45,818 nt of DNA from Balneolaceae bacterium (GTDB lineage Bacteria > Bacteroidota > Rhodothermia > Balneolales > Balneolaceae): NCBI GenBank assembly GCA_007694095.1, contig RECI01000191.1:1-45818 (forward strand), given 5' to 3'. The position numbers and the translations under genes were made by a program. The notes beneath the pieces are model-generated. The model saw nothing but the letters and a program-made list of their open reading frames with translations. It ran no database searches and had not been told where the DNA came from. Below, in pieces: positions 1 to 40,612 of this stretch (its first letter is position 1; each line of letters starts with the position of its first letter).

Positions 1-35
1 AGCGGTGCTTTTCCGCCACCTGGCAGAGTTGAACG
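1..35 (-). repeat. Truncated copy of the dispersed direct repeat-hairpin element
   Basis: Bases 2-35 are the exact reverse complement of the element at 23997-24030. The window edge cuts it inside the hairpin. The conserved flank (minus strand: ACTCTGCCAGG, at 19-29) and most of the hairpin are present; the second direct repeat lies outside the window. Confidence 0.8.
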
Positions 36-21098: not shown

Positions 21099-21517
21099 TA
21101 TTAAACGATTAAAACAGGAGATCGATTAATCACAGATTATAAAATCTGAGAAAGTGAAAGATTTTGAGAGTGATCATCGATTGATGATTCCAGAACACAG
21201 GCATTGCTTTTTATACGTTATATTGTTAGCTCAACTTCCGCAATATGTCAATTAAAGCTTGTAAACGGCTTTTGTAGTTGCTGCAATGGCAGGATTTGCG
21301 TGTCAATTCGTTTCAAGTCTGTTACATCTAAACGTTAGATTGTCAGGTTGGTACCGTTGGGCACATAGATCTCAACAATGAGACCCAAGGGTTGGAATAC
21401 GGAGTTTGCCTTCCATGCGAAGATATGATTATCCGCTCAACGAATCGATCACAGTTGACAGGACATCAGGGGTGGTTTTTCCTATAGGTATGTTCTTCTA
21501 CGTTTCCCATTCTCAAA
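21099..21517. other. Spacer upstream of the transposase element
   Basis: About 420 bp with no open frame worth calling. It contains a small perfect palindrome, ATCTAA-ACG-TTAGAT (21326-21340). I see no other structure I can support. Confidence 0.5.
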
Positions 21518-21616
21518 AGTCCGTTTGCGGACGAGCGATATGGTAACCCAGTGGATTTATCCCTGGGAAAAACCGCACCCTAAATGAGAAAGTGCCGCAG
21601 GCACGGTCGATATTCC
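21518..21616 (+). repeat. Left inverted repeat of the transposase element
   Basis: Contains GTCCG-tttg-CGGAC, then CCCAGTGGATTTATCCCTGGG (arms CCCAG/CTGGG), then GTGCC-gca-GGCAC, ending GGTCGATATTCC. The 24 bases between hairpins 2 and 3 differ from the right copy. Confidence 0.88.
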
Positions 21617-21704
21617 TTCCTTTAAAACCTGTGAAAATTCTTGTAAGGATTAACCGGTTTTTGGTTCATACTTATATACCAAACCAATCATTATAAAACA
21701 TCTC

Positions 21705-22166
21705 ATGGCAAATACCTTTCATCAACTCTATGTCCAAACGGTTTTTCCGGTCAAATACAGAAAAGCTCTCATCCATTCATCATGGAAACCAGAACTCCAG
21801 GCCATTATCGGAAATCTAATTAATGAAACCGGTTGCAAAACTTTCATCATAAACGGGATGGATGATCACATGCATTGCTTATTTGGATTAAAACCGTCGC
21901 TAAGTGTTTCAGATGTCATGAAATCCGTGAAAGCAAAATCTTCGAAATGGATCAATGAGAACGGGTATTTGAGGCGCCGGTTTGAATGGCAGCCAGGCTA
22001 TGGTAGTTTTTCCTACAGTCGCACTGATGTGAATAACGTGTATCATTATATTAGAAGTCAAGCCAAACACCACAGGGGAATGAGTTTTCGGGAGGAGTAT
22101 ATCAGAATGCTGAAAGAGGCTGGGGTGACCGATGAGATACCATATCTCTTTGACGAGTTGAAGTAA
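21705..22166 (+). CDS. tnpA: IS200-like Y1 (HUH) transposase / REP-associated transposase
   Basis: A 153-residue protein of the PF01797 type. The HUH metal-binding motif is HMH within GMDDHMHCLFGLKPS (about residues 50-64). The catalytic tyrosine is in DVNNVYHYIRSQAKHH, in the expected helix with a trailing Gln. Such enzymes cut and rejoin single-stranded DNA at hairpins. Length and the SYSR, FREEY and YLFDEL blocks match transposases widespread in Bacteroidota. It is complete with an ATG start, so it is possibly active. Confidence 0.93.
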   Translation: MANTFHQLYVQTVFPVKYRKALIHSSWKPELQAIIGNLINETGCKTFIINGMDDHMHCLFGLKPSLSVSDVMKSVKAKSSKWINENGYLRRRFEWQPGYGSFSYSRTDVNNVYHYIRSQAKHHRGMSFREEYIRMLKEAGVTDEIPYLFDELK

Positions 22167-22201
22167 GATGGGTGAAACAGTAGTTGCCTGTAATAAAGTT
22201 T

Positions 22202-22302
22202 GGAATATCGACCGTGCCTGACGGCACTTTCGGGGTTTGTGGCCTCTACAATCCCAGGGATAAATCCACTGGGTTACCATATCTTTCGTCCACAAGTGGA
22301 CT
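22202..22302 (-). repeat. Right inverted repeat of the transposase element
   Basis: On the minus strand it reads GTCCA-cttg-TGGAC, the same CCCAG...CTGGG hairpin, a different 25-base linker, then GTGCC-gtca-GGCAC and GGTCGATATTCC. Relative to the left copy, hairpin 1 has G-to-A on one arm and C-to-T on the other, which preserves pairing. Confidence 0.88.
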
Positions 22303-22502
22303 TACATGTGTGTTTTATATTTTAAAAATGACCAGATTTACCTGTAAACGATGATCTCCAGTTGCTAAAGGAAAGCTATTCTGAATAACCTGGTGAATGA
22401 AATATTCTGATCTGCAATTTTGAAATCATCGTTCAATAAGTATTATGTTTGCAGCAACTACATCGCCATTTTATAGTCACAAAGCTAAATTTGCAGTCGA
22501 TC

Positions 22503-23850: not shown

Positions 23851-23884
23851 AAAAGTGAAAAGTGAAAAGACAAAAGTGAAAAGT
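23851..23884. repeat. (GTGAAAA)n heptamer array 2
   Basis: AAAAGTG units with one interruption (AGACAAAAGTG). It is in inverted orientation to array 3, about 160 bp away, so the two bracket the pdhB-pdhC spacer. Confidence 0.9.
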
Positions 23885-23996
23885 ACTATGATGATTCACA
23901 ATAATCCAATTAATGAATACTATTCCAGTTTTAATATCCTGCGACCGCTATTCCGGTCTGTGATGATATTGGTTTTCAAATTACACTCAAATACAA

Positions 23997-24042
23997 CGTT
24001 CAACTCTGCCAGGTGGCGGAAAAGCACCGCCACTCTTGCAGG
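23997..24042 (+). repeat. Direct repeat-hairpin-direct repeat element, copy b
   Basis: ACTCTGCCAGG (24003-24013) and ACTCTTGCAGG (24032-24042) flank a perfect 7-bp stem, GTGGCGG/CCGCCAC, with a 7-base loop. The lead-in is CGTTCA. It is followed directly by TTTCAC and array 3. Confidence 0.88.
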
Positions 24043-24080
24043 TTTCACTTTTCACTTTTCACTTTTCACTTTTCACTTTT
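24043..24080. repeat. (TTTTCAC)n heptamer array 3
   Basis: Five units (the first lacking one T) plus a trailing TTTT. It ends 3 bp from the TAA stop codon of pdhB (24084-24086). Confidence 0.92.
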
Positions 24081-24083
24081 GCA

Positions 24084-25067
24084 TTAATTCCGGTATGTTA
24101 CTGCATTTACTGCATCAATTACCCGTTTTGCATCTGGCAGCCAGAGGTCAAACAGGTTTTTGGCAAAAGGTGCATGCACATCCGGAAGTGTGACTCTGCG
24201 AACAGGGGCATCCAGATAATCAAAGGCTTCACGCTGAATTATAAATCCCGCTTCAGCTGCCATTCCGCCATATGGATGTGCTTCATCTACAATCACACAA
24301 CGGTTGGTTTTCTTCACGGATTGGATAATCGTATCCATATCGAGCGGTTTGATGGTACGGGGATCAATGAGTTCCATTTCCACACCATCTTTTGCAAGCT
24401 CTGCGGCAGCTTTTTTTGCCACATGATACATCTTGCCAGATGCAATTACAGTTACATCGTCACCTTCTCTTTTAACTTTTGCTTTGCCTATGGGAATGAT
24501 GTAATCTTCCTCATCGGATACTTCCCCTTTCATACCGTACATCTGTTCCGATTCCATAAATATCACCGGATCTTCACACCTGATAGCCGATTTGAGCAGG
24601 CCTTTTGCGTCATCCGGTTCAGAAGGATATATCACCACAAGCCCCGGGAAGTGTGCATACATCGAATCGTAAGCCACGGAATGGGTTGCAGCGAGCTGAC
24701 CTGCAGAAGCATTCGGCCCCCTGAAGACGATAGGTACACTAGCCTGCCCGCCAAGCATGTAGCGAATTTTTGAAGCATGGTTTAGTATCTGGTCAGCAGC
24801 AAGTACAGCAAAATTAAATGTCATAAACTCGACTATAGGGCGAAGGCCTTTCATAGCAGCTCCAACACCAATACCCGAAAAACCGAGTTCGGAAATGGGT
24901 GTATCAATAACCCGTTTAAAGCCATATTTATCAAGCAGGCCTTCTGTAACTTTATAGGCACCGTTATACTCTGCAACTTCTTCACCCATGATGAATACAT
25001 TTTCATCGCGGTCCATTTCTTCATCAATTGCCTGTAAAAGTGCTTCTCTGAATTGTAATACAGCCAT
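24084..25067 (-). CDS. pdhB: Pyruvate dehydrogenase E1 component, beta subunit
   Basis: A 327-residue E1-beta of normal length. Typical blocks are LQFREALLQAIDEEMDRDENVFIMGEEVA, TPISELGFSGIGVGAAMKGLRPIVEFMTFNF, the FRGPNASAGQLAATHS loop, and VIVDEAHPYGGMAAEAGF near the C-terminus. Together with E1-alpha it decarboxylates pyruvate with thiamine diphosphate and loads the lipoyl arm of E2. It starts 46 bp after pdhA on the same strand. Confidence 0.96.
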   Translation of the reverse strand: MAVLQFREALLQAIDEEMDRDENVFIMGEEVAEYNGAYKVTEGLLDKYGFKRVIDTPISELGFSGIGVGAAMKGLRPIVEFMTFNFAVLAADQILNHASKIRYMLGGQASVPIVFRGPNASAGQLAATHSVAYDSMYAHFPGLVVIYPSEPDDAKGLLKSAIRCEDPVIFMESEQMYGMKGEVSDEEDYIIPIGKAKVKREGDDVTVIASGKMYHVAKKAAAELAKDGVEMELIDPRTIKPLDMDTIIQSVKKTNRCVIVDEAHPYGGMAAEAGFIIQREAFDYLDAPVRRVTLPDVHAPFAKNLFDLWLPDAKRVIDAVNAVTYRN

Positions 25068-31844: not shown

Positions 31845-31979
31845 GCCCCATTGGGGTAAACGGGACGCTTGCGCCATCTACACGATGGTGCTAGCATCAC
31901 AGGAATACACGATGGCGCAAGCATCTTGCTTGTGACCACGGTGCCGACTTACAAGATGGCGCAAGTATCTTGCTTGTGC
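31845..31979. repeat. Cluster of interlocking hairpin repeats (GATGGYGCAAGYATC type)
   Basis: It begins with GCCCCATTGGGG (31845-31856). Three related units follow: one containing CACGATGGTGCTAGCATCAC (about 31881-31900), one CACGATGGCGCAAGCATC (about 31909-31926) and one CAAGATGGCGCAAGTATC (about 31952-31969). Units 2 and 3 both continue TTGCTTGTG. Unit 1 pairs with an upstream GCGCCATC. CAAGAT...ATCTTG in the last unit is a perfect 6-bp stem. It lies between convergent genes and may also act as a bidirectional terminator. Confidence 0.75.
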
Positions 31980-32075
31980 CCCCCGGTGTTTATTCAAAAA
32001 AATAATGCGATCAAACGAGGGGTAACGCAACGAAAGCCGGTTAAAGCAGGGGGTCGTGTAAACCGGATCAAATCT

Positions 32076-35908: not shown

Positions 35909-36889
35909 ATGAGCACACTACTAACCTACATTTCGGTAAACAACGGCAAAATCAAACGGTCATCGCTTGAGGTGTTATCCCGTTGCAATGAGCTTGCGCA
36001 ACAGCATAATCTGATTTCTGCGGCTATCATTATTGATAAAAATGCTTCCGAGATAGCAGAAAAGCTTAAGGCTTACGGTCCATCCGTTATTTATATCATT
36101 GAAAACCCGGTTTTCAATAATCATCTGAATACCCCATTGCTCAAAGCACTTTCTTTGGCAATCGAAAAAATCAAACCGAAAATTGTAGCGTTTGCATCCA
36201 CAGAAAGTACGAAAGATATCCTGGGAGCCCTTGCTGCAAATCGGGGGGCTGCATCACTGGCAGATGTATCAGAGTTTGAATTATCAGGAACCGGAGTGAA
36301 AGCCAAACGCCCGGTAATGGCCTCGAAAATTATATCATCCGTTGAGGCAAATGATTCACTGGTACTGCTGACCGTGCGTTCCGGTTCTTATGATGTATCA
36401 ACCCAGCAAGCCGATTCAAACATTGAGGAAATTCCTTTCAGTTTCAATGATGATGAGCTTAAAATTACACTTAAAGAAATTATTAGCGCTTCCGGTGATA
36501 AAATTGACCTTTCTGAAGCTGAGACTGTAATTGCTGCCGGACGCGGCGTAAAAGACGAAGAAGGCAGAAAGCTGGTTGAAGAACTTGCATCTGTTTTGAA
36601 AGCCGGAATCGGCGCATCACGCGCATTAACTGAAGCGGGAGTTTATGATCCCAGCCTGCAGATCGGTCAGACCGGTAAAGTAGTTTCCCCACAGCTTTAT
36701 ATTGGAATTGGGATTTCAGGTGCCATTCAACACGTTTCAGGTATGGCCAACAGCAAAGTGATTGTTGCCATCAACAAAGACCCTGATGCTCCCATCTTCG
36801 ATATAGCGGACTATGGTATCGTAGGCGATCTTTATAAGGTTTTGCCGCCGTTTATTGAAGAGCTGAAAAAAGTGAAAAGTGAAAAGTGA
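35909..36889 (+). CDS. etfA: Electron transfer flavoprotein, alpha subunit (FixB-like)
   Basis: A 326-residue EtfA. The FAD-binding C-terminal half is clear: AAGRGVKDEEGRKLVEELA, GASRALTEAGVYDPSLQIGQTGKVVSPQLYIGIGISGAIQH and INKDPDAPIFDIADYGIVGDLYKVLP. With EtfB it carries electrons from acyl-CoA dehydrogenases. The gene starts 81 bp after etfB. The last codons (LKKVKSEK, then TGA) are read from a GTGAAAA heptamer array, so the C-terminal tail is repeat-derived. Confidence 0.96.
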   Translation: MSTLLTYISVNNGKIKRSSLEVLSRCNELAQQHNLISAAIIIDKNASEIAEKLKAYGPSVIYIIENPVFNNHLNTPLLKALSLAIEKIKPKIVAFASTESTKDILGALAANRGAASLADVSEFELSGTGVKAKRPVMASKIISSVEANDSLVLLTVRSGSYDVSTQQADSNIEEIPFSFNDDELKITLKEIISASGDKIDLSEAETVIAAGRGVKDEEGRKLVEELASVLKAGIGASRALTEAGVYDPSLQIGQTGKVVSPQLYIGIGISGAIQHVSGMANSKVIVAINKDPDAPIFDIADYGIVGDLYKVLPPFIEELKKVKSEK

Positions 36890-36893
36890 AAAG
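36867..36893 (+). repeat. GTGAAAA heptamer array 4, inside the etfA 3' end
   Basis: Three GTGAAAA units starting at 36872. The TGA stop of etfA (36887-36889) is formed by the array itself. Confidence 0.92.
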
Positions 36894-36941
36894 CTGGAGC
36901 GATTGGCGACAGGTCCCGACACGCCGGGGTTAAAAGTGAAA

Positions 36942-36986
36942 CCTGCAAGAGTGCCCCGACAGGCCTGTCGGGGTTCCTTGCAGAGT
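36942..36986 (-). repeat. Direct repeat-hairpin-direct repeat element, copy c
   Basis: On the minus strand: ACTCTGCAAGG, a perfect 20-bp palindrome CCCCGACAGGCCTGTCGGGG (36954-36973), then ACTCTTGCAGG. The outer context (CGTTCA before, TTTCACTTTT after) matches copy b, but the hairpin is entirely different. Confidence 0.88.
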
Positions 36987-37060
36987 TGAACGTGTTATGG
37001 AAGTGAAAATTAAAAAATCAATGTTAATACTCGCAACTCAAGAGGAACAGCTGCCTGTTT

Positions 37061-38383
37061 ATGGATGAAAAATTTGACTGTATAATTGTTGGTGCCGGGG
37101 TTGCCGGGCTGGCCGCAGCCATGATATTGGCCCGGAACAATCTGAAATTCCTGCTAATTGAAAAAGGTGACTTCCCTGGTTCAAAAAATGTTTCAGGCGG
37201 TGTATTGTGGGGGAGCGATCTTGCAAAACTTGTACCCAACTACTGGGATGAGGATGCCGGATGGGATCGCTTTATCAACCACCGGCGGTTAACATTTATG
37301 GATAACCAATCAGCTTTCTCTGTTGATTTCAAGTCCTCACACTTTAACGAAACTCCCTATACAGGCGTTGTGGTGCTGCGTTCAAAGTTTGACCGCTGGC
37401 TCGCCGGTAAAGTCCAGGAAGCTATCGATGCCAGCGAATATGCGATGGATTCCTTCATTGCACCCAATATTTTAGTTGAAGAAATATTGATGGAAAATGG
37501 AAACGCTGTTGGTATCCGAACCGGAGAGGACAGGTTTTATTCCGACTCAGTAATTATCGCTGAAGGTGTGAATAATTTACTGACCCGCCAGGTTGGCCTG
37601 CAGGATACATATGTGCCGGCCGATCATATTTTAACCGGAATTAAGGAAATTATCCGGTTTGATGAACGTGTACTCGAAGACCGCTTCCAGCTAAACGGCA
37701 GAAGCGGAATGAGTAACGAATTTGTGGGATTTTCAACGGATGGTGTTGAAGGCGGCGGGTTTCTTTACACCAACAAAAATACCATTTCACTGGGGCTTGT
37801 CCTTGGCCTCAAAGATTTACGGGAAAAAGAAAAAGCTCCCTATGATATCCTGAATACCTTTAAACAGCATCCTGTTATATCTGATATGATCCGGGGGGGC
37901 GAGGTTGTTGAATATTCAGCTCATGTGGTTTCTTCTGGCGATAAACGGATAATTCCGAAGCGGCTCTGCAAAGGTGGTCTTCTCGTTTGTGGTGAAGCCG
38001 CCAATCTGCTGATGAATTCCGGTAAAGCGATCCAGGGTATGGATTACGCAATGAGATCGGGCATACTTGCTGCTGAAGCTATCGTAAATGCAAAGAAAAC
38101 CTCTGATTTCGGTGAAGCATCCATGCAACGATACCAGGCTGCCCTGGAAGACAGCTATATAATGAAAGATATCAATAACTTCCAGGATGCAGTACACCTC
38201 CTGCATGACCCCGTAATGACCCAGAAAGTCCCGAATCTGCTTTGTGATTTTGGCAGGAATTTTTTCAGTATTAAAAACGAACCCACAAGGAAGGCACGAC
38301 AAATGCTTGGTGAGTCCGTCAAGAAATACTCATCCTACTGGGAATTAATGAAAGTAGGTGTGAAAGGAGCGAAAGCTCTTTGA
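37061..38383 (+). CDS. fixC: FixC/ETF-quinone oxidoreductase-like flavoprotein
   Basis: A 440-residue FAD protein. The dinucleotide motif is at the N-terminus (IIVGAGVAGLAAAMILARNN), followed by the family's KNVSGGVLWG. Later blocks include GFSTDGVEGGGFLYTNKNTISLGLVLG and LVCGEAANLLMNSGKAIQGMDYAMRSGILAAEAI. It lacks the fused C-terminal 4Fe-4S domain of mitochondrial ETF-QO; that part is supplied by the separate fixX gene. It passes electrons from ETF toward quinone at the membrane. 171 bp downstream of etfA. A heptamer array starts 3 bp after its stop. Confidence 0.93.
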   Translation: MDEKFDCIIVGAGVAGLAAAMILARNNLKFLLIEKGDFPGSKNVSGGVLWGSDLAKLVPNYWDEDAGWDRFINHRRLTFMDNQSAFSVDFKSSHFNETPYTGVVVLRSKFDRWLAGKVQEAIDASEYAMDSFIAPNILVEEILMENGNAVGIRTGEDRFYSDSVIIAEGVNNLLTRQVGLQDTYVPADHILTGIKEIIRFDERVLEDRFQLNGRSGMSNEFVGFSTDGVEGGGFLYTNKNTISLGLVLGLKDLREKEKAPYDILNTFKQHPVISDMIRGGEVVEYSAHVVSSGDKRIIPKRLCKGGLLVCGEAANLLMNSGKAIQGMDYAMRSGILAAEAIVNAKKTSDFGEASMQRYQAALEDSYIMKDINNFQDAVHLLHDPVMTQKVPNLLCDFGRNFFSIKNEPTRKARQMLGESVKKYSSYWELMKVGVKGAKAL

Positions 38384-38385
38384 GT

Positions 38386-38408
38386 CAAAAGTGAAAAGTG
38401 AAAAGTGA
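38386..38408 (+). repeat. GTGAAAA heptamer array 5, at the fixC stop
   Basis: CAAAA-GTGAAAA-GTGAAAA-GTGA, starting 3 bp after the fixC TGA (38381-38383). It is followed by a hairpin, CCCATCT...AGATGGG (38409-38434). Confidence 0.9.
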
Positions 38409-38434: not shown

Positions 38435-38603
38435 TAATAATGCTGGAGCGACAGCGACAGTCCCGACACACCGGGATAAAAATCTGGTTCACCAGACCTG
38501 AGGTGTCGGTATGAAAATTGATAAGATTTTGTAAGTTATTTCCATTTTGAAGGTCATACTTAATAAATATGAAACCAATATTTAGGTATCAACAAGGTAA
38601 AAC

Positions 38604-38628
38604 TTTTCACTTTTCACTTTTCACTTTT
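38604..38628. repeat. (TTTTCAC)n heptamer array 6
   Basis: Three TTTTCAC units plus TTTT, inverted relative to array 5. It lies 34 bp before the fixX start. Confidence 0.9.
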
Positions 38629-40442: not shown

Positions 40443-40612
40443 ATTCAATAGTTCCACTCTTGAATCCGCTTCAACGCTGCGAGGTGCTATCGCACGCTCT
40501 CAGGTTTTCGCTCGACAATTCCACAGTTCCGCCCAGTAATCCGCTTCAACTCTGGCAGGAGGCCCGAAAGGCGCGGGCCACTCAGCCAGGTTTTCGCTCA
40601 ATAATTCCACGA
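40443..40612. repeat. Two tandem direct repeat-hairpin elements (copies d and e)
   Basis: Two ~75-bp units, each with AATCCGCTTCAAC before and CAGGTTTTCGCTC after a central hairpin. Copy d: ACGCTGCGAGG, stem GTGC-tatc-GCAC, ACGCTCTCAGG (40474-40504). Copy e: ACTCTGGCAGG, stem GGCCCG/CGGGCC, ACTCAGCCAGG (40549-40590). The stems differ while the flanks are conserved. The rest of the 413-bp spacer 40272-40684 has no gene. Confidence 0.85.

Follow-up and report, generated by a model that had tools for sequence, protein, structure and literature searches.

REP elements are short imperfect hairpins that occur as many dispersed intergenic copies, and doublets, proximity to ORF 3' ends and stem irregularities are among their described features (PMC3733652; PMC8266576). 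Palindromic REP-like repeats that carry no terminal tag have been described in Mycobacterium, Deinococcus, Bordetella, Brucella and cyanobacteria (PMC3733652), and atypical secondary structures with genomic copies are described for TnpA-Y1 subclass 2.6 of Bacteroidetes (PMC6006769). The REP hairpins of E. coli have a stabilising effect on the 3' ends of RNA (PMC13289151). Here we analyze an apparently undescribed family of repeated-DNA hairpins of Balneolota and Bacteroidota. The stretch in which it was noticed, referred to below as the window, is the whole of a single contig (C287; 45,818 nucleotides) within a 4.56-Mb, 324-contig genome assembly.

All five hairpin copies reported by a first-pass annotation of the window are present, at or a few bases off the places it gave, and its four different paired centres exist as described. 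Copy 1 (1..35, minus strand) is cut by the contig end, so that only its 5' arm and a portion of its inner stem are present. Copy 2 (24001..24046, plus strand) is the hairpin CAAC-T-CTGCCAG-...-CTTGCAG-GTT. It lies 40 nt past the stop of a dehydrogenase E1-beta-like gene (24084-25067, minus strand), with a (TTTTCAC)n heptamer array (24047..24087, no strand) between the stop codon and the hairpin. Copy 3 (36939..36988, minus strand) is tipped by CCCCGACAGGCCTGTCGGGG and lies 51 nt past the stop of an etfA-like gene (35909-36889, plus strand). Copies 4 (40472..40506, plus strand) and 5 (40547..40592, plus strand) are tandem partners with a 75-bp period, the former being a short-loop variant, ACGCTGCGAGG-TGCTATCGC-ACGCTCTCAGGT, and the latter having the tip GGCCCG/CGGGCC and one mismatch in its arm. 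Contig C323 carries a second tandem pair, whose inner tip is identical to that of copy 5 and whose arms are fully paired. Copies had been said to be intergenic throughout; this holds in the window, while genome-wide some overlap open frames of at least 100 codons, mostly short and probably spurious.

Several other repeats were observed in the window. Imperfect heptamer arrays of the type AAAAGTG/CACTTTT are found at 82-107, 23851-23890, 24047-24087, 36868-36893, 38383-38408 and 38602-38628, all of them intergenic and adjoining gene ends. At the etfA-fixC spacer (the site of copy 3), relatives often have inverted arrays of quite different, species-dependent heptamers, for example GAGTCTT...AAGACTC, GAGTATC...GATACTC or GCAGAAG...CTTCTGC. 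A second dispersed hairpin family, GATGGCGCAAGC...GCTTGTG, is present at 31871-31990, in the etfA-fixC spacer of two relatives (G005 and G016) and beside some ACTCT hairpins. The palindrome CCCCGACARGCNTGTCGGGG (36954-36973) forms the tip of several hairpins and has more matches elsewhere in the genome, some of which take the form TCCCGACA...TGTCGGGA.

The copy number of the hairpin family is far above chance. In the window's genome, the pattern TTCAACTCTGCN{18,45}CAGGTTT has 19 matches against none for a reversed-pattern control, CAACNCTGNNAGGN{5,35}CNNNCAGG has 52 against none, and ACNCTNNNAGN{6,38}ACNCTNNNAGGT has 135 against a single control match. Removal of nested matches leaves about 120 distinct copies. 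On one strand, here called the T strand, they follow the plan A-C-K-C-T-N-N-N-A-G-R ... A-(C/T)-K-C-T-N'-N'-N'-A-G-G-T. Read from the base, the hairpin consists of an AC/GT pair, a bulged K, seven base pairs formed by CTNNNAG and CTN'N'N'AG, and a bulged K on the other arm; inward of this second bulge a single pair, G-C or rarely A-T, is followed by either an A-A mismatch or a T-A pair, beyond which lies an inner stem that, like the loop, is very variable in length. Each arm thus has one bulged base, the two lying on opposite strands and seven base pairs apart. The bulged letters are T or G on one strand and A or C on the other (of 205 unique copies, 148 have T/T and 31 have G/G). Together with CT..AG, the G-C pair that follows it and AC...GT, they are the fixed letters of the family, and every stem position outside them is free provided that it is paired. 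By inspection, internal loops of the GA/GA or GNA/GNA type are often nested in longer tips. At L191:2551-2695 an array of overlapping ACTCT/ACGCT hairpins, whose arms are able to pair with either neighbor, was observed inside a repetitive open frame.

The free positions covary strongly. Among 206 unique copies, the first inner-stem pair is Watson-Crick at a rate of 0.87 (0.31 when shuffled), the first outer pair at 0.94 (0.44) and the second outer pair at 0.66 (0.30), none of these pairs having been selected for; the middle N of the arm is paired at 0.88 (0.27), a value that, as for all three N positions, is inflated by the preselection of copies with at least 6 of 7 arm positions paired. When this filter is left out, all three N positions are paired in 53 of 86 unique pattern matches and two are paired in a further 28. 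All four pair types occur at two stem positions. The copies are kin to one another, so that these counts are not independent events and overstate independence. An orthologous comparison is available from the congener G018, which shares three stop-adjacent hairpins with the window's genome. In one of them CTGCAAG/CTTGCAG is replaced by CTGCCAG/CTGGCAG and the inner G-C pair by A-T, both being paired double substitutions. The first-pass proposal of selection for structure is borne out by this ortholog and by the pairing at the middle arm, first inner and first outer positions. Its description of constant flanks is not, since compensated exchanges also affect the NNN letters and the outer stem.

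The same results bear on the idea that different hairpins insert into a single target, or slot, which is duplicated on either side. The outer parts of the element do resemble direct repeats of about 11 bp, and the palindrome CCCCGACARGCNTGTCGGGG of one centre recurs elsewhere in the genome. However, the likeness of the outer parts comes from base pairing between the arms CTNNNAG/CTNNNAG, themselves nearly self-palindromic, and folding shows that every complete copy is one long imperfect hairpin rather than a hairpin held between two repeats. A partner arm is present at 29 of 30 exact matches to the 3' flank, and there is covariation between the two arms. These two results led to rejection of the slot model, which is barely conceivable as an explanation. 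A search of the window's genome for empty sites with a single flank found none.

Hairpins have a fixed position and orientation relative to the adjoining gene, the order on the coding strand being stop codon, 2-60 nt, ACCTNNNAGAGT ... CCTNNNAGAGT. When counts are restricted to the stops of open frames of at least 100 codons, which stand in for curated gene calls, a stop lies within 60 nt in the favored orientation 50 times and in the other once in the window's genome, with counts of 24 versus 5 in congeners and 27 versus 11 in a wider set. A control shifted by 700-900 bp gave 16 versus 28 among 393 positions. Between convergent genes, 20 of 23 hairpins are nearer the stop predicted by this rule. 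Because the orientation is tied to single genes, we infer that it is not a simple replication-strand effect. Clustering of the ORFs around hairpins revealed no recurrent partner gene. A position after stop codons would also suit intrinsic transcription terminators of unusual sequence. However, when a U-tract directly after the hairpin was sought, TTTT was found on the coding strand within 16 nt downstream in only 6% of copies, and terminators are a very improbable explanation.

A more serious alternative is that the hairpin is a host mRNA 3'-UTR element, selected as RNA and immobile, which blocks 3' exonucleases or binds a protein after Rho-type termination. This would account for the fixed orientation and position after stop codons and for the maintenance of orthologous copies, one of them with paired changes, and the stabilising effect of E. 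coli REP hairpins on RNA 3' ends offers a precedent. Moreover, of the sense and antisense strands, RNA parameters give the sense strand the more stable fold in 159 of 213 informative copies, the coding strand being slightly more stable by RNA and DNA parameters alike. On the other hand, a structured transcript is expected to show an excess of G-U over A-C mismatches, and this is absent: stem mismatches on the T strand comprise 43 G-T and 37 A-C, which amounts to no strand signal. The loops point in the same direction. Loops of the GNA and c(GNNA)g types are exceptionally stable in DNA, while selection on RNA would be expected to favor GNRA. On the coding strand, GNA makes up 33 of 45 triloops and GNNA 39 of 50 tetraloops closed by c/g, but only 3 of these 39 are GNRA. 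The absence of the family from many relatives and the presence of copies in alternating arrays also speak against a pure mRNA 3'-end element, which ranks second and is possible rather than likely. Weighed together, and in spite of the slightly greater stability of the coding strand, the loops, the mismatches and the lack of a U-tract favor single-stranded DNA as the level of action, and a role in mRNA may coexist with it.

The distribution of the family is patchy. The pattern ACTCTNNNAGGN{5,35}ACTCTNNNAGGT matches 21 of 195 relatives: about half of the genus itself carry it, as do a few genomes from other genera belonging to its family and order. When 84,980 species genomes were scanned, at least 85 matching stretches were returned, nearly all from Balneolaceae or Bacteroidales-type genomes. 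Among the matches listed are Labilibaculum, Ancylomarina and Rhodohalobacter, which places the family across Balneolales and Bacteroidales/Marinilabiliales; two outliers by title in the same set, one a Mediterraneibacter MAG and the other a Pseudomonas isolate, are close to the number expected by chance. Viral contigs contained only two pattern matches. Bacteroidales hairpins are often arranged as inverted doublets with a spacer of about 18 bp, and the window's genome has a 60-bp tandem array and an alternating array. Copy 3 is lineage-specific, since the hairpin is absent from the etfA-fixC spacers of 29 relatives except for a decayed remnant in G018. A clean insertion point was sought in these spacers and a clean empty site in the L200/L331 comparison; none was recovered from either, the sequences being too diverged.

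Comparison with relatives was also informative for integrons. Their attC sites follow a cassette ORF and fold as bulged single-stranded DNA, and sites of this kind recombined by an integron integrase would resemble the hairpins found after stop codons, many of which have an AAC/GTT base. The window's genome does encode a full integron integrase on contig C35. However, integron integrases are common in the order, exceeding the cut-off in 60 of 127 relatives without relation to hairpin presence: G013 (52 copies) and G005 (41 copies) have none over the cut-off, and many integrase carriers have no hairpins. No co-occurrence was thus detected across the relatives, some of whose assemblies are incomplete. 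The hairpins follow housekeeping genes rather than cassette arrays. The R box consensus RYYYAAC...GTTRRRY was also absent from the copies and flanks inspected, in which the stem base varies between AAC/GTT and GAC/GTC and the 3' side is not GTTRRRY. We consider an attC-like origin highly improbable. The integrase gene is full-length at C35:6974-7915 of the window's genome (G000; locus L184), and a broken second copy is located at C30:5097-5968.

A cognate Y1 transposase flanked by hairpins was sought in the window's genome, its relatives and 20 hairpin-bearing genomes without success, and of about 60 Y1_Tnp loci scanned only two or three had hairpins nearby, about the number expected by chance. 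The window has a Y1_Tnp gene of its own (21705-22166, within 21517-22303), which is flanked by 52-bp inverted repeats with small palindromes of their own that are unlike the hairpin family. A GTAG/GTGG or CGTC foot tag was likewise sought in both flanks, and no such 4-mer was among the most frequent. CCCG-like letters are enriched on one flank in the window's genome only (49% versus 9%) and are mostly absent elsewhere (11%). Because neither a terminal tag nor a flanking RAYT was found, and because integron integrases do not track the hairpins, the family is not filed as a REP/RAYT member or as attC.

For a family with the observed structure, covariation, placement, orientation and distribution, the most likely explanation, at somewhat better than even probability, is spread as a DNA element of the untagged REP-like kind. 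Copy number relative to control, patchy and lineage-specific presence, covariation, orientation, loop types, doublets and arrays all speak for it. Against it stand the lack of a candidate enzyme, the failure to recover a clean empty site among the too diverged relatives and the fact that placement and orientation at single genes point equally to a role at the RNA level. Probably, a putative enzyme moves or copies the hairpin in the form of single-stranded DNA, and the copies are kept at gene 3' ends. In such a mechanism, a protein would read the bulged hairpin as single-stranded DNA and would spread or copy it in trans. Copies would be kept just downstream of stop codons, where transcription may in addition provide the mRNA with a stable 3'-terminal hairpin. 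By analogy with the REPs of E. coli, spread as DNA and a function at mRNA 3' ends would not be fully exclusive. A more radical and rather unlikely version is that the family represents a class of single-stranded DNA element, read by its structure, that was previously unknown. Here a putative recombinase, independent of Y1 transposases and integron integrases, would recognise the two opposite bulges by their spacing of seven base pairs and would install each hairpin, always in the same orientation, behind a stop codon. The family has a strict orientation relative to stop codons and no known enzyme, and it makes two questions testable: which protein is responsible for the spread of hairpins of the untagged REP-like kind, and whether such hairpins function at the level of DNA or at the 3' end of mRNA.

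The first-pass annotation knew of no named family with this design, and the tests made here agree: at the gathering threshold, comparison of the window and nine loci with Rfam returned only tmRNA and one tRNA, and a literature search for the motif letters found no relevant paper. The design is nevertheless close to that of untagged REP elements. Like GTAG- or CGTC-tagged REPs and their BIME/REPIN doublets, the family comprises short imperfect hairpins with conserved stem irregularities and alternative loop and inner-stem variants, dispersed as many intergenic palindromic copies near ORF 3' ends and organised in places as inverted pairs, tandem arrays and alternating arrays. It differs from them in having two fixed bulges on opposite arms, a stem that is almost entirely free to covary and a single orientation relative to the neighboring stop codon. 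TnpA-Y1 subclass 2.6 (PMC6006769) is alike in phylum group and in its atypical hairpins with genomic copies, but our family does not flank any of the Y1 genes that were checked. Integron attC sites are also sequence-poor, structure-rich, bulged single-stranded hairpins that follow an ORF, and they differ by their cassette arrays, consensus and integrase. The untagged palindromic repeats of PMC3733652 are alike in having no terminal tags and occur in other phyla. We describe the family as one that works like an untagged REP element without REP/RAYT membership. It is a widespread and easily recognised REP-like addition in Balneolota and Bacteroidota, and its structural covariation is unusually clean.
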